DNA from: Bacteroidales bacterium
GTDB taxonomy: Bacteria; Bacteroidota; Bacteroidia; Bacteroidales; JAADJA01
Direction of reading: 5' to 3'
DNA: 64,000 bases
Assembly (NCBI GenBank): GCA_021740645.1
Contig: JAIOZL010000027.1
Span: 1-64,000 of the forward strand
Shown in pieces: positions 24,906 to 37,462 of this stretch (position 1 is the stretch's first letter; every line of letters starts with the position of its first letter). Below the pieces are notes generated by a model. The model was not told the DNA's origin and ran no database searches. It saw only the letters and a list, made by a program, of their open reading frames with translations. The position numbers were made by a program, and so were the translations under genes.

Positions 24906-25694
24906 TTAGTTTGAAATAATAAATTTTTGCTGCTTCAAAATATTACCATTTTTGCTTATCACCAGAAAATGCAAGCCGGGAGGAAGACTTTTTACCTCAA
25001 TAATTGACTGCATTCCACCTATGAATCCATTCTGCTCTAAGTATCCATTGAAAAAATAAATTGAATAGCTCAAATCATTTAGGTCAATGGTTTTAAAATC
25101 AATGGTAATAAATTCTTTAACGGGATTTGGATAAACCTCAATCTGTAGGTTATCTCCTGGTTTTTCCTGAACTGAAGTTATGACAGGAGTAACGCCATGT
25201 TCAATTAACATGCTATCGATAGCCTGGCTGTTAGGAATATAGGTGGGCAAGTATATCTGGCTTACAATATTTTTATCAGGGGCAATTAAAACCAATGTAG
25301 GGAAAGATTGTATCCCATATTGAAGGTGCACATTATAACCACCACCCTCCGTTCCGCTAACATTTGGATATCCTATTCCATAAATCGAATCCCATTCTTC
25401 TATCAATGCATTGTTGGCTGTGTAGCTAATTCCCATGAAAAATACTTCATTTTGGTTTTCACCAAATGTGATATAACTTTGTTGAACATCGGGAGCAAAT
25501 ACCTGGCAGGGTCCGCAATTAACAGCAAAAAAATCGATAAACACAAACTGGCCATTATCCAGTATTTCATACAAATCCAGCGTAGCTCCATCTGTAGCTT
25601 TAATTGAAAAATTCTCAGCAACAGTAAGAGGGGTCTGAGCATTTATTGTAATTGAAAAGCCTAGAATTAAGATAAGGATGAAAATCTTTTGCAT
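24906..25694 (-). CDS. Thioredoxin-fold T9SS cargo, CxxC (Cys) paralogue
   Basis: 262 residues. Signal peptide (1-20, ending ITINAQ), a TlpA/AhpC-type thioredoxin domain (about 22-165) with redox motif NCGPC (Cys60 and Cys63) and a cis-Pro motif SFPT, then a type A sorting domain (VYPNPVKEFI to the end). Predicted to be exported and displayed or released by the T9SS, acting on extracellular or surface thiols. It is the second gene of a tandem pair: it starts 4 nt after the stop of the neighbouring paralogue, with which it aligns without gaps through the active site. The neighbour has UGA at the position of Cys60. Confidence 0.88.
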   Translation of the reverse strand: MQKIFILILILGFSITINAQTPLTVAENFSIKATDGATLDLYEILDNGQFVFIDFFAVNCGPCQVFAPDVQQSYITFGENQNEVFFMGISYTANNALIEEWDSIYGIGYPNVSGTEGGGYNVHLQYGIQSFPTLVLIAPDKNIVSQIYLPTYIPNSQAIDSMLIEHGVTPVITSVQEKPGDNLQIEVYPNPVKEFITIDFKTIDLNDLSYSIYFFNGYLEQNGFIGGMQSIIEVKSLPPGLHFLVISKNGNILKQQKFIISN

Positions 25695-25698
25695 AGGA

Positions 25699-26496
25699 TT
25701 AATTTGTCCGTATTATTTTTTGCGTAGTTAAAATAATATTATTTTCAATAAGCTGAAGAAAGTACAATCCCTGAGGCAGCTTGGAAAAGTCCATTTGAAT
25801 TGTATGTATACCTTCCTTAAAAAATTCCGGAGGAAGAACAACAACCTCTCTTCCGGTCAAACTAATAAGCCTGATTTTCAAATTTATGTCCGACTTCAGG
25901 TTTAATCTTAACTGGGCTTCATGCCTTACAGGGTTTGGGCTTATTACAAGCATTTCTTCAGAATACTTTTTCGAGATACTTGTTAAGCAAGCTTGTTGAA
26001 CTCCTCCAGCAGTAGTCACACTATCCACAACATTTGATGTACTTGGTGGGTAAATTTGTTGAACAGCGATGGATTTATCAGGGTTAATCACAACAATGGT
26101 AGGTGTGGCCTGTATTTCATACAGAAAATGAATGGCATTTCCTCCCCCATTCTGGCCACTCACCCCTGGGTATTGAATACCGTAAGTCGAATCATAGGCA
26201 ATCACATCTTCGTTGGTATTTCCTTTATCAATCGACATAAAGAAAACATTACTGTTATTGCATCCAAACGTTTCGTACGACACCTGCATATCTGGTGCAT
26301 ACGCCTGACAAGTACCTCAGGCAGTGGAGAAAAAATCGATTACTACGATTTTCCCCTGGTTTAAAATATCAAATAATTCAATGTTATTTCCGTAAGTATC
26401 CTTAACGGTAAAATTTTGAGCAGTGTCTAATGTGGTTTGTGCATAAACTCCGAAACCAAAAAGTACAAATGCCACAATGGGTAAAACTTTTTTCAT
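25699..26496 (-). CDS. Predicted T9SS-exported thioredoxin-like selenoprotein (in-frame UGA at codon 60)
   Basis: Read from ATG 26496, codons 1-59 give a signal peptide (MKKVLPIVAFVLFGFGVYAQ) and the start of a thioredoxin domain ending VVIDFFSTA. Codon 60 is UGA (26319-26317); codons 61 onward continue GTCQAYAPD and run in frame to a TAA at 25699, 265 residues in all if UGA is read. The adjacent paralogue has FFAVNCGPCQ with Cys60 at the same residue number, so the motif here is U-G-T-C. The cis-Pro motif (ATPT) and C-terminal type A sorting domain (ISPNPVRHEA to IIRTN) are intact. A SECIS-like hairpin begins 13 nt after the UGA. Inference: selenocysteine insertion. The alternatives are a nonsense mutation or base error. 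A conventional caller would start at ATG 26289 and lose the signal peptide and active site. Confidence 0.8.
26274..26303 (-). promoter_or_regulatory. Candidate bacterial SECIS element
   Basis: In the mRNA, starting 13 nt after the UGA: CGUAUG pairs with CGUACG (six pairs, one U-G wobble), CACC pairs with GGUG (four pairs), one U is bulged between the two helices on the 3' side, and the apical loop is AGAUAUGCA. The loop starts 23 nt after the UGA and has a G at position 2, as required in bacterial SECIS models. No such stem exists at the same place in the Cys paralogue. Confidence 0.72.
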
Positions 26497-26698
26497 CTGA
26501 AAAGTATAAATAAGTTGTAAGTATTATATGACTTCAATCTATAATAAGATACAGTAAAGATAACAAGCAGACCAACTAATCTGTTCACCCGATGCCTTTG
26601 TATTTCTTTACTGATAAAATATTTTTCAATTAATGTTCTATCTTTATAGTCGCTATTTTTTAATAAAACTAACAATAAATTTCAATAAATCAGAATTT

Positions 26699-27649
26699 AT
26701 GGAAAACGTGAAGACAGGGCGGACACCTTTGGTGGAATTCCCACCTGATGAAATGAAAAAACTCATTCAAAGTTTTTCATTGGAAAAACTAGCCTCTTTC
26801 CTTGACGTTACCGATCTGAACGCGGACACGCAGGCACCTAAAATGAAAAAGATGGTGGATTGGGCCAGGACCTATGGCTGTGCTTCTGTATGTGTTAATC
26901 CAGTGGAAGGAGCCGATATTCTTCCGGAATTATGCAAAGGTTCTGGAATTAAAGAGTGCTACGTAATCGATTTTCCTCTTGGCAAGGTAGATATTGAATT
27001 AAAAGCTGAAATGACATCACATACGGTAAATAAAAGCCGGGCAATAAGAAACGAAGGAAAGGGAAACATAGAACTGGACATGGTTATTAATGTGGGAAGG
27101 TTTAAAAAAGATCATGCCTATACCCTCGAGGAGATCAATGCGGTATGCGATGCTGCCGACGGAGAGCATGTTAAAGTGATCGTCCGCTCTTCTGAACTTA
27201 CCGAAAAAGAAATTTATGAGGTTTCAGAAATTGTGGCTTCGTCCAGGGCTGATTTTATAAAAAACTCCACAGGGATGGATGCATATGGTGCTACGCCTGA
27301 GCATATTCATATCATGCGGGAAGTGGTTGGCAATGAAATGGGTGTAAAAGCTGCAGGTGGCATTTCGGATGTAATGACAGCCATGAGATTATTTTATGCA
27401 GGGGCTAGGGAGGAAAAACTGCAAACCCCGGAATTGTTCCGGCTTGGCACAAGTAAACCCCTCAATATCCTGTCTTCCTTTGGATGGTTAATCCATTCTA
27501 CAGAGGATTGGATAAATGCAGGAATTATTCCCTGTACCATTTGCCCATATAATTTTACCAGCAAATTACGCGTAGAACTCAGAGAAGAAAGTAACGCAAA
27601 ATGCCGCTCCTGCAAGTTTAAAGAATACCGTAAACACAAAGAATTTTAA
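26699..27649 (+). CDS. deoC: Deoxyribose-phosphate aldolase with Cys-rich C-terminal extension
   Basis: 316 residues from ATG 26699; the open frame upstream to 26633 precedes the family start. Schiff-base Lys188 is in DFIKNSTGMD, the second active-site Lys217 in VKAAGGISD and the catalytic Asp127 in ELDMVINVGRF. It cleaves 2-deoxyribose-5-phosphate to acetaldehyde and glyceraldehyde-3-phosphate. The last ~40 residues carry CTICPYN (Cys279, Cys282) and CRSCKF (Cys302, Cys305), a possible metal-binding knuckle beyond the aldolase fold. It is 15 nt upstream of an aldehyde oxidoreductase gene, probably one transcript. Confidence 0.92.
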   Translation: MENVKTGRTPLVEFPPDEMKKLIQSFSLEKLASFLDVTDLNADTQAPKMKKMVDWARTYGCASVCVNPVEGADILPELCKGSGIKECYVIDFPLGKVDIELKAEMTSHTVNKSRAIRNEGKGNIELDMVINVGRFKKDHAYTLEEINAVCDAADGEHVKVIVRSSELTEKEIYEVSEIVASSRADFIKNSTGMDAYGATPEHIHIMREVVGNEMGVKAAGGISDVMTAMRLFYAGAREEKLQTPELFRLGTSKPLNILSSFGWLIHSTEDWINAGIIPCTICPYNFTSKLRVELREESNAKCRSCKFKEYRKHKEF

Positions 27650-27664
27650 TCAAAGATAGTGACT

Positions 27665-29512
27665 ATGAAAAGGATAACAGGTGGATATTTTGGCAAACTA
27701 TTAAGAGTAAATTTAACAAACCATACATATAAAAGTGAGGACCTTCCTGAGCAAATTTTGATAGATTATATTGGTGGACGTGGATTGGGCTCTAAAATTT
27801 TATACGATGAAGTACCACCCAAATCAGATGCTTTAGGGCCGCATAACATCCTCCTTTTTTTAACTGGCCCTCTTACCGGTATTCCGGCTCCTACGACCAG
27901 CCGGTTTTCGGTGGTTTCAAAATCACCTCTTACGGGCACTGTTGGGGGGAGTTCTTCTGGGGGTCATTTTGGGATTAACCTGAAATCGACTGGCTACGAT
28001 GTTTTATTAGTAGAAGGAATTTCGGATAATCCATGTTACTTAAATATCACTGATCAAAAAGTCGAAATTAAGGATGCTTCACATTTATGGGGCAAAAACA
28101 CCGATGAAACTACTGAGCTTATCCTTATTGAGACCAGCCCAACTGCCGGGGTAGCAAGTATTGGCCCGGCAGGTGAAAACCAAAGTCTCATCGCCTCTAT
28201 AATGAATGAAAAGAATCATGCAGCCGGCCGGGGTGGGTTGGGTGCTGTAATGGGTTCAAAAAAATTAAAAGCAGTGGTGGTTAATGGTGCTCAAAAAACA
28301 CCTTTTGAAAATAAAGAAGTGGTTGATGATGCCATTAAACAATGGAGGACTTTTGTTGGAGAAGCCCCACTTACTAAAGATGTTTTAAAAGAATACGGTA
28401 CCCCTGCCCTAGTTAAAGTGATCAATCATTATGGTGCTTTTCCAACCAACAACTTCCAGGAAGGTGTTTTTAACGATGCTGACTCCATTTCAGGAGAAAC
28501 CTTTAAAGAGCTTTATTTTGTTAAACGGAAGCCCTGCTCAGGTTGCCCGATAGGCTGTGCCCGTGTTACTGCCACTCCAGAGATGGATGGCAAAGGGCCC
28601 GAATTTGAAACCATTTGGGCCTATGGTGCATTATGTGGGGTAAACGACCTGGAGCAAATTATTCATGCAAATTATAATTCCAATAAATACGGGTTTGATA
28701 CTATTTCTGCCGGAAATGCCATTGCCTGTGCTATGGAACTTTATGAAAAGGATTTCCTTCCAAAAGAAACCAAATTTCAAATAAAAAATAACCTGGGCAG
28801 AGACCTTGCATTCGGCGACAAGGAAGCCATTGTTTTGTTTACAGAACTAATTGGGAAAAATGAAGGTTTTGGGAAGGACCTGGCTTTAGGCAGCAAAAGA
28901 CTGGCAGAAAAATATGGCCATCCTGAGCTTGCAATGCACGTAAAAGGGTTAGAACTTCCAGCTTACGATCCCAGAGGATTTCATGGTATGGCCATTTCTC
29001 TGGCGACTAATAACAGGGGCGGTTGCCATCTGCGTTCCTACCTCGTAAGCACTGAAGCGCTGGCCACTCCATTTGCCATCAACCGTTTTGAAGCTAAAGG
29101 AAAGCCCGGCCTTACAAAATTATACCAGGACCTGACCTCCACAGTGGATTCTATGGTGGCCTGTGTATTTACTTCTTTTGCGCTAAACCCTGACCTCTAT
29201 GCACAACTGCTGGGATCCGTCACTGGTATTGAACAAGATGGCAGGGCCCTGCTAAAAACAGGTGAACGGATATACAATTTAGAGCGATTGTTTAACCTAA
29301 GGGAAGGGTTATCAAGGGATGATGATACCCTGCCGCAACGTTTATTGAACGAACCCTTTAAATCGGGTTTATCAAAGGGATATAAAATACAGTTAGAAGC
29401 TTTACTCGACGAATATTATACCTTACGTGGATGGAGCCGGGATGGCATTCCCTCAAAAGCAAAACTTGTGGAATTGAATTTATTGGCTGAGAACTCAGAG
29501 CTAAGTGCATAG
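27665..29512 (+). CDS. Aldehyde:ferredoxin oxidoreductase (tungsten-pterin family)
   Basis: 615 residues from ATG 27665 (MKRITGGYFGKLLRVNL); an in-frame GTG lies at 27659. The [4Fe-4S] ligands are CSGCPIGC (Cys291, 294, 298) with the fourth in DSMVACVF (Cys500), a layout close to the archaeal enzyme. SIGPAGENQSLIASI and HAAGRGGLGAVMGSK are pterin-binding signatures. It oxidises aldehydes to acids with ferredoxin as acceptor and needs tungsten bis-pyranopterin. Following deoC, the acetaldehyde made by the aldolase is an obvious candidate substrate (inference). Confidence 0.92.
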   Translation: MKRITGGYFGKLLRVNLTNHTYKSEDLPEQILIDYIGGRGLGSKILYDEVPPKSDALGPHNILLFLTGPLTGIPAPTTSRFSVVSKSPLTGTVGGSSSGGHFGINLKSTGYDVLLVEGISDNPCYLNITDQKVEIKDASHLWGKNTDETTELILIETSPTAGVASIGPAGENQSLIASIMNEKNHAAGRGGLGAVMGSKKLKAVVVNGAQKTPFENKEVVDDAIKQWRTFVGEAPLTKDVLKEYGTPALVKVINHYGAFPTNNFQEGVFNDADSISGETFKELYFVKRKPCSGCPIGCARVTATPEMDGKGPEFETIWAYGALCGVNDLEQIIHANYNSNKYGFDTISAGNAIACAMELYEKDFLPKETKFQIKNNLGRDLAFGDKEAIVLFTELIGKNEGFGKDLALGSKRLAEKYGHPELAMHVKGLELPAYDPRGFHGMAISLATNNRGGCHLRSYLVSTEALATPFAINRFEAKGKPGLTKLYQDLTSTVDSMVACVFTSFALNPDLYAQLLGSVTGIEQDGRALLKTGERIYNLERLFNLREGLSRDDDTLPQRLLNEPFKSGLSKGYKIQLEALLDEYYTLRGWSRDGIPSKAKLVELNLLAENSELSA

Positions 29513-33661: not shown

Positions 33662-36600
33662 CTAACGAATAATGATTCGATTTACAGTACTTCCCTGGTA
33701 GTTTTCAATTACAAGGAAGTACATACCTTTATTAAGATCGCTCAAATCCATCTTCTTAGTAAACGTACCTTCTGTTGTGATATTATCTTCAACAAAAACA
33801 AGGTTACCGATGGTGTTGAACACTTTTAGTGTCACATTATCTTTAAGAACGTTATCAAAACTAAGCGTAAAGATACCATTATTTGGATTAGGATGTATAC
33901 ATATTTTTTCAATATTTACATCATTTATACCCGTACAAACATTTACAACGATGTAATCCTCCATGGTTACTGAATGTGTTTCATTGCCATCAGATACAGT
34001 GAGAGTAACGTCGTAAGTACCCGACACCGCATACATTACCATTGGATTCTGGAAAGTTGATGTGGAAGGTGATCCTCCTTCAAATGTCCATTCCCAGGAA
34101 ATTACATTTCCGTTTGACATATCAGAAAATTCCACAATTTCATTTTCACAAATTTCAGTTGTATTCGAAACAAACATTGCTTGTAGTGAATTATCAAATC
34201 CAAAAAATTCAAGATAAGCCATCATTAACTCTTCTTTGGTGGATGGTGAGGTTCCATCATCAAGCCCCCCAAATTCGTGTGAAGAAGCAATGGTTTTATA
34301 TGAACCTGCGTCATTAGCAACAGCGGTACCATAACCCGGAGACTGGTTTTCAAATATCATAACTGCAGAACCTGCGGGTTCTATATGGTCAATCCAACTG
34401 TTATCTCCTGAATAATTAAACGACATCCCTTCAGTAAATGTGCCTGTTAAACCCATTACTGTTCCCAGGTCGGAACTTCCATCACTGGTCGGGTTTACAC
34501 TAAACATACTATGTACAGCTGTTTGTGAATCATAATACCATGTGTCACCACCTTCCATATAAAGGTTACCGCCACTATTGAGGAAGTCAGCTAAATCCTG
34601 GCCTTCATCTGTAGATAATACATGATTATCTGAATAGATTCCCAGGCAAACAAATAATGTAGAATATAATCCAAGATCTTCAGGGAAAGAAGTCATATAT
34701 TCTGCGGTAATTTCTGCTGTTGCAATTGCATCCTGCATAACACTGGCTGAATTTGCATTTCCATCAAGGTCAATTATCAACACCGGAATCTGTCCGATTA
34801 CTTCTTCAAATGATCCTGTGGCACTTAAGCTCATGTCACCGGTTAAAATTAGGTCAAAAGTTACAGCATAACCTGCCGGAGTAGTTGCATCTGCAGAAAT
34901 TGAAAATGTTTGCACAGATGTACTTCCAGAAGTCACATTCCCATATGATTGACTTCCGTTTACAATAGTTATAAATGGATCAACACAGCTAAGATCTCCC
35001 ATGATATTATAGGCATCTGATGAACCACTGTTCATGATTTCAATGGAAATATCTACTGTTTCTCCCGGATCAATTTTACCGTTATTATTCCCGGTCGGAT
35101 CCATTATCGTATAAGTATCAATTCCTATAACGGCTGCATGGAATGTTACAGTAGTAGTACTAACCCAACTTGCATCACTATCATCAGTAAATTCAATTTC
35201 AAATAAAGCCATATAGTTATCAGGAGTGTCTTCAGAAACCAAAATTTCAAATGCGCCATTACCTGCTACTACTGCACCTGCTGCAATAGTTCCATAATTA
35301 TGATTATCATCCAAAATAGTAACAAAGGGGTCAGTAGAGGTTAGGATTGCGTCCACACCTGTTGCATCATCTGTACCTACATTTTCAACAGCTATATCAA
35401 GTAAAACAGTTTCCCCGTAATCAGCTTGTCCATTATTGTTCCCGTTTGAATCATCTACCTCGCATGTATTTACAACTACATAAGCTCCTCCGGGAGGTAC
35501 CACCGTAACTTCATCATATATTGTTTCCATATTAAAAGCTGTAACAACCAGAGTGGCTGTGCCTGGTGCAAGAGTATGGTCGAAAGAGACAGCTCCCGAA
35601 GCATCTGTAATAGCTGAAAAATATTCCCCATTCTGTGATAGGCAAAGCATTGCACCTTCAACCGGTCCATTTGGCCCGGTTACTGTTGTAGAAAACGGAG
35701 CACCCACAAGAACAACATAGCTGGATAGATTAAGATCGCCGGGAGTATCAGTTCTAACCTGCAAAGAAGGGTCTCCAAAATAAATCCAGGTCTTAGCAGT
35801 TTCCCAATCTGAATTACTTCCTGACTCAGTTGTCATTAAAACCAGGCCATTAAAAATGATGGAACCCAAGGTAGTCCTTCCTTCTGTTGAACTAATCCCG
35901 TTTTGCCCCGGATGAGCACTGTAATCATAACCCCCTATAAGCAGGTCAGCAAAATAATCCTGACCCCGCATTGGTGGCGTCCATGGTTGGCTGATTGAGC
36001 CTCCAAGGAACATAATAGCGCCGCCATTAGCTTTTCGGGTCCAGGCCTCACCAAAGCATGTTCCGTTATGCATGTCGCCATTGTTACATGCTACAGAAAT
36101 TATAAAAGGCAACATATTACCGTTTGTTAATCCAGCTACCTGGGAATTGCTAAAACCAGAAGTACTCCAACCTTGCATATAACCATGGCCACAGTAGTTA
36201 ATAGCACTTACTCCGGATGTCACAGCATTTGAAACTTGTTGAGATGATGCTCCGGGATCGTAAGCTGTATAATAATCATCAAAAGTAAATGGGTCATATT
36301 TGTCATCATAAATTACTTGTATATGGTCCTTGTCCATTTCTCCGTCATCCCCGATCCCTGAACCTTCACTCGATCCAACTCCAAGGGCACCCTTGTACCA
36401 TGTTCCTGTCATATCAGGATTTTTCTCGTAATTAATCACCTTATCAACCATAACTGTTACATCTGCTGCTGAGTTTGCTGAAAATCTACCGATGCAAATG
36501 TCAGGTTGGTCGTCACTGCCTACTACACAGCCAAGCTGAGGATCAGTTGGGGCACTGTTGTTGCTTATTATATCGCTCTTAATATCTGCCCAATCGCCCA

Positions 36601-37462
36601 CTAGCTGCACATATAACAGGTTATTGTTTGAAGCATATGCATTTTGTACAATGGTTTTTACATTTGTACCAGTAGCTACAGTTTGCGTTTCAACATTGAA
36701 ACCTTTATCCATTTTCCACTCAACATAAGGAACAATAGCATCCTCATCCCTGCTTGTGCATAACACAAGAATATCGCCGTAACCACCAATGGTTAAATCT
36801 TTAGAGGCCTCAGCATAATTTATAAACAAAGTTTGGTAAATAGAGTGCATTTCCCTTAAAACAGCCTCCGGCTCTTTTGGAAGGGGATTTATTGCCTGAG
36901 TTTCATTTTCAACCAACTGAACTGTCACTGAATTATACACCCTTAATACATTTTGTACAGCATTATACCTGAAAGGATAAACATATATTGTTGTACCTCT
37001 TAAATCTTTAATTATAAAAGGTTGAGTGTTTTGTGCCAGGTTTTGAGGATACCAATCATCACGTAATGAGCTTTCTGCTATTTCGTATGGTATAGTTGAC
37101 GGGTCCTGGTCACGATAAATAACTCCCCTTGAAGGTAACATTGGGTTATTTAGTGAAATATCTTCATAAGATTCTGCTACAACCTTGAGGCTGACATTTT
37201 TATTTCCCGTTAGTTGCACAGATGCATTAATAAAGGGAAGTTCTGCATAGCCACTAAGTTGGGTGAAAACACTACCCTCAAAAGCTATTTTAGAGAAAGT
37301 AACACCTTCATGAGTAATTGTGTTTAGATCATAGTTTCCCAAATCAAAGTTTAGTTCATACACCCCTGGTTGGGGTTGGCTATAATTTACATCATAACCA
37401 TTTGATGCAAAAAGCCCTGAAAAGGAAAGGGCTAAAACGATAATTAATAAATAATGCTTCAT
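33662..37462 (-). CDS. Gingipain-like C25 cysteine peptidase, T9SS cargo (copy A)
   Basis: 1,266 residues. Signal peptide (1-19), propeptide (about 20-215), then a Peptidase_C25 domain (about 225-575) with catalytic His426 in YCGHGY and nucleophile Cys459 in SVACNNGD. Next come two related beta-sandwich modules, each opening with a calcium-type NNGxxDxGE motif (DSNGNNNGQADYGE; PTGNNNGKIDPGE), a Rossmann-like segment near 900-1085 (VLIIDLDGN), a PKD domain (about 1105-1175, SWEWTFEGGSPS) and a type A sorting domain (HPNPNNGIFTL). It should be a secreted or surface endopeptidase. It lies 70 nt downstream of a second C25 gene in the same direction. Confidence 0.92.
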   Translation of the reverse strand: MKHYLLIIVLALSFSGLFASNGYDVNYSQPQPGVYELNFDLGNYDLNTITHEGVTFSKIAFEGSVFTQLSGYAELPFINASVQLTGNKNVSLKVVAESYEDISLNNPMLPSRGVIYRDQDPSTIPYEIAESSLRDDWYPQNLAQNTQPFIIKDLRGTTIYVYPFRYNAVQNVLRVYNSVTVQLVENETQAINPLPKEPEAVLREMHSIYQTLFINYAEASKDLTIGGYGDILVLCTSRDEDAIVPYVEWKMDKGFNVETQTVATGTNVKTIVQNAYASNNNLLYVQLVGDWADIKSDIISNNSAPTDPQLGCVVGSDDQPDICIGRFSANSAADVTVMVDKVINYEKNPDMTGTWYKGALGVGSSEGSGIGDDGEMDKDHIQVIYDDKYDPFTFDDYYTAYDPGASSQQVSNAVTSGVSAINYCGHGYMQGWSTSGFSNSQVAGLTNGNMLPFIISVACNNGDMHNGTCFGEAWTRKANGGAIMFLGGSISQPWTPPMRGQDYFADLLIGGYDYSAHPGQNGISSTEGRTTLGSIIFNGLVLMTTESGSNSDWETAKTWIYFGDPSLQVRTDTPGDLNLSSYVVLVGAPFSTTVTGPNGPVEGAMLCLSQNGEYFSAITDASGAVSFDHTLAPGTATLVVTAFNMETIYDEVTVVPPGGAYVVVNTCEVDDSNGNNNGQADYGETVLLDIAVENVGTDDATGVDAILTSTDPFVTILDDNHNYGTIAAGAVVAGNGAFEILVSEDTPDNYMALFEIEFTDDSDASWVSTTTVTFHAAVIGIDTYTIMDPTGNNNGKIDPGETVDISIEIMNSGSSDAYNIMGDLSCVDPFITIVNGSQSYGNVTSGSTSVQTFSISADATTPAGYAVTFDLILTGDMSLSATGSFEEVIGQIPVLIIDLDGNANSASVMQDAIATAEITAEYMTSFPEDLGLYSTLFVCLGIYSDNHVLSTDEGQDLADFLNSGGNLYMEGGDTWYYDSQTAVHSMFSVNPTSDGSSDLGTVMGLTGTFTEGMSFNYSGDNSWIDHIEPAGSAVMIFENQSPGYGTAVANDAGSYKTIASSHEFGGLDDGTSPSTKEELMMAYLEFFGFDNSLQAMFVSNTTEICENEIVEFSDMSNGNVISWEWTFEGGSPSTSTFQNPMVMYAVSGTYDVTLTVSDGNETHSVTMEDYIVVNVCTGINDVNIEKICIHPNPNNGIFTLSFDNVLKDNVTLKVFNTIGNLVFVEDNITTEGTFTKKMDLSDLNKGMYFLVIENYQGSTVNRIIIR

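Follow-up and report, generated by a model that had tools for sequence, protein, structure and literature searches.

A predicted UxxC thioredoxin-fold selenoprotein with a type IX secretion sorting domain in a genus of Bacteroidales

Selenocysteine (Sec) is a costly and reactive residue. Among the predicted selenoproteins, ExtKL, the GSU2204 family, and a TonB-dependent receptor are proteins located in or outside the outer membrane, and the hosts of the first two are relatives of Geobacter. The TonB-dependent receptor selenoprotein comes from Desulfosarcina, according to the available part of the corresponding article (PMC12013277). Selenoproteins with a thioredoxin fold and a UxxC motif are well known, as stated in the available part of a 2026 review (PMC13188914), and the main text of that review contains no occurrence of "T9SS," "secret," or "bacteroid." The distribution of the Sec trait was surveyed in 2006 (PMC1794560); in the available part of that survey, every Sec organism had FdhA or SelD as a selenoprotein, all Sec organisms without FdhA had a Sec-type SelD, and the trait was not detected in Bacteroidetes.

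We analyzed a stretch of 64,000 nucleotides from a Bacteroidales bacterium, referred to as the window, which belongs to a 5.06-Mb genome assembly of 83 contigs (G000; completeness, 95.81; contamination, 5.95). The minus strand at 25699..26496 contains a gene for a predicted thioredoxin-fold selenoprotein tagged for the type IX secretion system (T9SS), which encodes 265 residues plus TAA when UGA is read as Sec. The only internal stop of this frame is the UGA at codon 60 (26317..26319, minus strand), which lies in the context FFSTA-U-GTC-QAYAP; the predicted Sec is the first residue of a UGTC motif, and Cys63 (26308..26310, minus strand) is the predicted resolving cysteine. Four bases past the stop of this gene starts a tandem paralog (24906..25694, minus strand; 40 to 41% identity), which has CGPC at the same place as UGTC and likewise carries a sorting domain. 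An earlier inspection of the letters alone, here termed the sequence-only reading, had claimed that the frame is intact apart from one UGA and that this UGA matches the first Cys of the CGPC motif of the paralog; both claims held on translation. Elsewhere in the window, the open reading frame (ORF) at 27659-29512, judged by eye to be aldehyde:ferredoxin oxidoreductase-like and located beside a deoC-like ORF (26633-27649), suggests an anaerobic life. With respect to the UGA gene, comparison of sequences indicates that it very probably encodes a selenoprotein with Sec at codon 60. Our main reading, to which we assign a probability of about 0.82, is that Sec is inserted by means of SelB and a hairpin that follows the UGA, that the product is exported by the T9SS, and that it works outside the cell as a thioredoxin-fold oxidoreductase.

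Profile searches, in which the UGA was read as Sec, returned several thioredoxin-type families above their cut-offs, namely, AhpC-TSA (50.3 bits, cut-off 26, residues 24 to 144), Redoxin (32.2 bits, cut-off 26.6), Thioredoxin_8 (32 bits, cut-off 27), and Thioredoxin (28.3 bits, cut-off 23.5). The resulting AhpC-TSA/Redoxin/ResA-like thioredoxin-fold domain covers residues 24 to 152 (26041..26427, minus strand). A profile score above the gathering score, the UxxC motif, and a conserved proline together place the protein in the AhpC-TSA/redoxin superfamily. The top solved match of the family profile is ResA (2h1b, E value of 3e-12), and the profile alignment places the first redox Cys of ResA on residue 60 and the conserved Pro of ResA, which we take to be the cis-Pro, on Pro132 (26101..26103, minus strand). 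The protein lies outside ResA proper (NF002854), with 48.3 bits versus an NCBIfam cut-off of 170. Residues 185 to 262 (25711..25944, minus strand) form a T9SS type A C-terminal sorting domain (PF18962, 36.2 bits, cut-off 27; TIGR04183, 36.2 bits, cut-off 23), and over residues 183 to 263 the family profile matches chains 8glk_D and 8qb1_A, which are presumably T9SS tails. The N terminus has a predicted signal peptide (MKKVLPIVAFVLFGFGVYA-Q; 26437..26496, minus strand). From the set of domains announced by the sequence-only reading, the thioredoxin and sorting domains are thus confirmed by profile scores, the proposed cis-Pro aligns with the conserved Pro of ResA, and the signal peptide stays a judgment by eye. 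Two further cysteines, C79 and C170, are found in all 10 Sec forms of the genus and are both missing from the orthologs of G004, G007, G010, and G015 and from the paralog in the window; since they are present or absent together, they may form a structural disulfide.

As to export, the window encodes at 33662-37462 a large protein with a C25-type peptidase-like domain and a T9SS tail, both recognized by eye, which adds to the signs that this genome uses the T9SS. The genome also encodes a SprA homolog (C50:22092-29192, L145; 2572 bits), in which one in-frame TAG splits the gene into 1450 and 1014 codons. This TAG is an assembly error, a polymorphism, or real damage, and it weakens the case for export in this particular assembly. 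It also lends some weight, as does the fact that ResA is the closest solved relative, to an alternative in which the product is a true selenoprotein that ends up in the periplasm as a ResA/TlpA-like reductase, either because the C-terminal domain is inefficient or because the T9SS is broken in this strain. Against such a periplasmic destination, the scores of the sorting domain exceed the curated cut-offs, as does the TIGR04183 score in 6 of 6 tested proteins from the other UGA families (families 2 and 3 and a gene of G047, see below), whereas neither a lipobox nor a membrane anchor is evident by eye. We consider this alternative unlikely and retain export across the outer membrane as the preferred reading.

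The genome contains the machinery needed for Sec. Its tRNA-Sec (61.5 bits; anticodon TCA by ARAGORN) clusters on contig C41 with selA (528.9 bits), selB (328.1 bits), and selD (361.0 bits), all above cut-off, and contig C57 carries a second selD above cut-off (390.9 bits). The combination of selA, selB, selD, and tRNA-Sec that is expected of a bacterium with selenoproteins is hence complete in G000, and the search for these four genes that the sequence-only reading had suggested found all of them in the same assembly. By gene content, the organism should thus be able to make Sec. Tetranucleotide correlations between the C41 stretch and pieces of the window were 0.952 to 0.976, similar to those among the window pieces themselves (0.939 to 0.974); since a stretch of the genus member G005 is about as close to C41 (0.965), this match does not separate members of the genus. 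Contamination of the bin (5.95%) was considered as an explanation and ruled out by the occurrence of selA in 13 and of the UGA in 10 of the 17 genus members.

The UGA count stems from a homolog search of 60 genomes, including that of the window, in which the best matches were aligned; the genus is represented by 17 genomes (G000 to G016). The ortholog has UGA at the exact column in 10 of them (G000, G001, G002, G005, G008, G009, G011, G012, G013, and G016) and Cys in 6, as CGPC in G003 and G014, CGTC in G006 and G015, and CSGC in G004 and G010; the ortholog of G007 is truncated by a contig end ahead of this site. All 16 readable genes thus have either UGA or Cys at codon 60, and no further stops were found in the aligned part of the orthologs from the 17 genomes. 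Both observations bear on the sequence-only reading, which had looked to homologs with UGA or Cys at this position for support and had named scattered additional stops in relatives as evidence to the contrary. A conserved redox position with in-frame UGA in some genes and Cys in their homologs (10 UGA and 6 Cys) is what characterizes a selenoprotein gene.

As to the machinery, a selA gene above cut-off was present in 13 of the 17 genomes, namely, the 10 with UGA as well as G004, G010, and G015, and these 13 also have a tRNA-Sec (57 to 65 bits); selB exceeded its cut-off in 12 genomes of the 17, and in G010 a contig end truncates it. The readable genomes that lack selA, G003, G006, and G014, all have Cys at codon 60. 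The chance of such a split is 20/560, or ~0.04, as calculated by hand with kinship ignored, G003 and G014 being near copies. Sec forms therefore occur only alongside the machinery and Cys forms with or without it, and because the selA-positive genomes G004, G010, and G015 carry Cys, Sec is not essential. The two closest pairs gave dN/dS values of 0.08 and 0.18 from codon 78 onward, which indicates that the region after the UGA is under protein-level constraint; over the 45 pairs of UGA genes, the mean pN was 0.35 versus a mean pS of 0.71, with dS saturated in many pairs. A tree of 20 proteins, built without G007, G042, G047, and G049 and with the paralog of the window added, requires three changes between Sec and Cys, and with 10 of 17 inner branches open it does not fix the direction of change. 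We also surveyed the phylum with the UGA protein, using 395 evenly drawn genomes and scoring at most six candidates per listed genome. Matches with an E value of ≤1e-10 were obtained in 33 of the 395 genomes; since none of the matches listed outside the genome of the window has a TGA, the UGA family looks narrow.

UGA readthrough is known to occur, and the codon might be decoded in another way, either through genome-wide reassignment or through readthrough with Trp or Cys. However, TGA terminates 3 of the 32 mechanically called ORFs of at least 200 amino acids in the window and is therefore an ordinary stop here, as the sequence-only reading had stated. Moreover, when at least 50 codons starting with ATG are required ahead of the TGA and at least 150 behind it, the UGA gene is the only TGA-joined pair of frames in the window, both strands included, and in all 24 TGA-bearing relatives among the matches listed the TGA occupies the first position, i.e., the first redox residue, of UxxC, at which homologs have Cys. 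Such alternative decoding is very improbable. We attach equally little credence to a regulatory role, in which low selenium would stop translation at codon 60 and this termination would switch the downstream CxxC paralog according to the selenium supply. The start of the CGPC paralog only 4 bases after the stop makes translational coupling possible, but the tandem was seen in 3 of the 17 genus genomes (G000, G002, and G006) within the flanks covered, some of which a contig end truncates, and in G006 the tandem occurs without the UGA.

Further support for Sec insertion, the preferred reading of codon 60, is provided by the nucleotides that follow it. The alignment of the 57 bases from the UGA onward is free of gaps across the 10 UGA genes, and comparison of these bases reveals a hairpin within the coding sequence (26274..26303, minus strand) whose 10-bp stem contains one bulged base and whose 9-base loop is AGAUAUGCA, the loop being AGAU(U/A)UGCA across the 10 genes. 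It is separated from the UGA by a spacer of 13 bases to the stem and 23 bases to the loop. The stem pairs in 96 of 100 cells across the 10 genes, with changes on both sides in two pairs, and sliding the partner strand lowers pairing to 14 to 45%. There are only two compensatory cells, and further pair types (5, versus 5.2 in shuffles) show no excess. Synonymous-codon identity among the UGA genes is 0.822 at codons 61 to 76 (590 comparisons) versus 0.446 elsewhere (5567 comparisons); for the six Cys genes, a set that includes two near-identical pairs, the values are 0.692 and 0.535. Compared with synonymous recodings, the observed 9 to 10 of 10 pairs exceed the means of 6.0 to 6.7 and were reached in 0 to 23 of 1000 recodings, whereas the folding energy is low in seven sequences (1 to 28 of 1000) and ordinary in three (105 to 119 of 1000). 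Folding of the single sequence over 50 bases from the UGA was not significant (z of -1.14), and an Rfam scan of the gene region gave four subthreshold matches to unrelated families, none of them SECIS-like.

A covariance model, with which 20 genomes were scanned at 150 candidates each, scored 79.9 to 87.1 bits at the 10 UGA genes, which are the same sequences that built it. The other matches were the six Cys orthologs (31.5 to 58 bits), the family 2 UGA of G004 (26.2 bits), and one chance-level match. The second base of the loop is G in all 10 UGA genes, and a conserved loop G of the bacterial SECIS is named in figure legends of two articles, as far as these are available (PMC1794560 and PMC2398784). 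We thus predict that the hairpin is a bacterial SECIS and a putative binding site of SelB. The highest-scoring Cys ortholog, that of the selA-positive G015 (G015:C152:19886-19942, L137; 58 bits), keeps 8 of the 10 pairs and is possibly the remnant of a SECIS after a change from Sec to Cys. Although TGA is one base away from TGT and TGC and the contigs come from draft assemblies, the reading of the gene as a Cys gene hit by a nonsense mutation, pseudogenization, or sequencing error is hardly credible, given the TGA at the same codon in 10 assemblies, a recurrence that excludes a chance origin, the absence of other stops, the preserved hairpin, the purifying selection past the UGA, and the presence of the decoding machinery in the genome. 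Taken together, the machinery, the UGA/Cys column, the hairpin, and the selection past the UGA bear out the interpretation as a selenoprotein put forward from the letters alone.

The genus contains two more families with an in-frame UGA. Family 2 comprises UxxC thioredoxins of 363 to 450 codons with thioredoxin, PKD, and T9SS domains, as determined for two members, and is represented in G000 by L102:2455-3726 (G000:C80). In 10 genomes of the genus, all of them selA positive, the UGA of this family encodes the first position of UxxC, and the codon is TGC in the two selA-negative genomes examined, G003 and G006. Family 3 genes are about 600 codons long, and their products have tails of the FlgD and T9SS types, a weak CARDB match, no thioredoxin match, and a middle domain without a confident Pfam match; its member in G000 is L103:1304-3178 (G000:C41:45303-47177), and others are L109, L110, L118-L120, and L191-L197. 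These proteins share the motif TMG-C-[FY]-C-x-[DS]-U-G-x-TPPG (CxCxxU) with one UGA, Asn replacing the first Cys in G011. In all 13 selA-positive genus genomes, the family 3 gene has the UGA and adjoins tRNA-Sec/selA upstream on the same strand. Family 2 has no peak of synonymous conservation past the UGA (0.46, versus 0.50 upstream and 0.43 downstream), and the rise in six family 3 sequences (0.64 versus 0.43) is exceeded at +33 to +48 (0.72); the hairpin argument is therefore strong for family 1, that of the gene in the window, only. UxxC relatives with UGA also exist in other families of the order, namely, in G047, in which the gene adjoins selA and has a T9SS domain on testing, in G043, and, with two genes (L116 and L117), in G049. 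In the 95% complete assembly of G049, selA and tRNA-Sec were not found, so that either the machinery is missing from the assembly or these UGA genes are decaying. Taken as a group, these predicted exported selenoproteins merit more attention than the gene in the window does by itself.

A related issue is which proteins the Sec machinery serves. No TGA was found in formate dehydrogenase-like (FdhA) matches of the 13 selA-positive genus drafts, 12 of which had matches and several of which are only 65 to 87% complete; the single FdhA match above cut-off, in G005, has no stop. The active-site residue of the operon SelD is Cys in the 6 of 13 that were read (G000, G004, G005, G012, G013, and G015), and the operon SelD of G043 and the second SelD of G000, on C57, are likewise of the Cys type. 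As far as FdhA and SelD alone are compared, the genus appears to differ from the pattern of the 2006 survey. The lack of a TGA-containing FdhA in the 13 drafts and the Cys-type SelD in the 6 read suggest that the machinery may serve mainly exported proteins. We see an even chance that the genus maintains its Sec system largely or exclusively for the sake of exported T9SS proteins, namely, the two UxxC thioredoxin families and the new CxCxxU family. If so, this would amount to a surface selenoproteome in a phylum in which the early survey did not detect the Sec trait, and it would break with the proposal that the trait requires a Sec-type FdhA or a Sec-type SelD. Annotation that reads every UGA as a stop would truncate all of these genes.

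For the gene in the window, the following course of events can be proposed. Insertion of Sec at codon 60 by tRNA-Sec and SelB, helped by the hairpin just 3' of the UGA, is strongly supported by the sequence comparisons. Judging from its domains, the product would cross the inner membrane by means of its signal peptide, and its C-terminal type A domain would then direct it through the T9SS across the outer membrane. The UxxC motif and the ResA-like fold suggest that the selenolate of Sec60 would attack a disulfide, peroxide, or polysulfide and that Cys63 would resolve the resulting selenylsulfide; the odds that its job is thiol-disulfide or peroxide reduction are about balanced. Our guesses for the extracellular electron donor are ambient sulfide or the CxxC partner. 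A Sec center sent across two membranes raises the questions of the external reductant, of how the selenol survives export, and of why Cys orthologs suffice in sister genomes.

The locus can be compared with four described groups of proteins. (i) It resembles ResA (PDB 2h1b and 1st9) in that the redox Cys and the conserved Pro align, and it differs in that ResA has Cys instead of the predicted Sec and, to our knowledge, no sorting domain. (ii) Like T9SS type A cargo (TIGR04183/PF18962), it has a sorting domain above cut-off and a signal sequence recognized by eye, and unlike any such cargo found in print, it has a UGA/Sec redox center. The statement of the sequence-only reading that no T9SS selenoprotein has been described is consistent with our literature search, which had subscription papers mostly outside its scope and yielded neither a T9SS selenoprotein nor an exported Bacteroidota selenoprotein. 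(iii) With the predicted outer-surface selenoproteins, namely, the multiheme cytochrome ExtKL, the MtrB/PioB-type beta-barrel family of GSU2204, and the TonB-dependent receptor (available parts of PMC13188914 and PMC12013277), it shares the predicted location, whereas its fold and export route differ. (iv) It is closest in kind to the UxxC selenoproteins described as Prx-like thiol:disulfide oxidoreductase, Redoxin, or thiol-disulfide isomerase-like (PF00578, PF08534, and cd02966), with which it shares the AhpC-TSA/redoxin-type thioredoxin fold and a Sec that substitutes for the first redox Cys, and it is set apart from them by its fusion to a sorting domain, none being seen in theirs in the available part of the review (PMC13188914). 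The genus furthermore carries the Sec trait, in contrast to its nondetection in Bacteroidetes in the available part of the 2006 survey (PMC1794560). What stands is that the gene represents a known kind, the UxxC thioredoxin-fold selenoprotein, and that its predicted destination via the T9SS is new.
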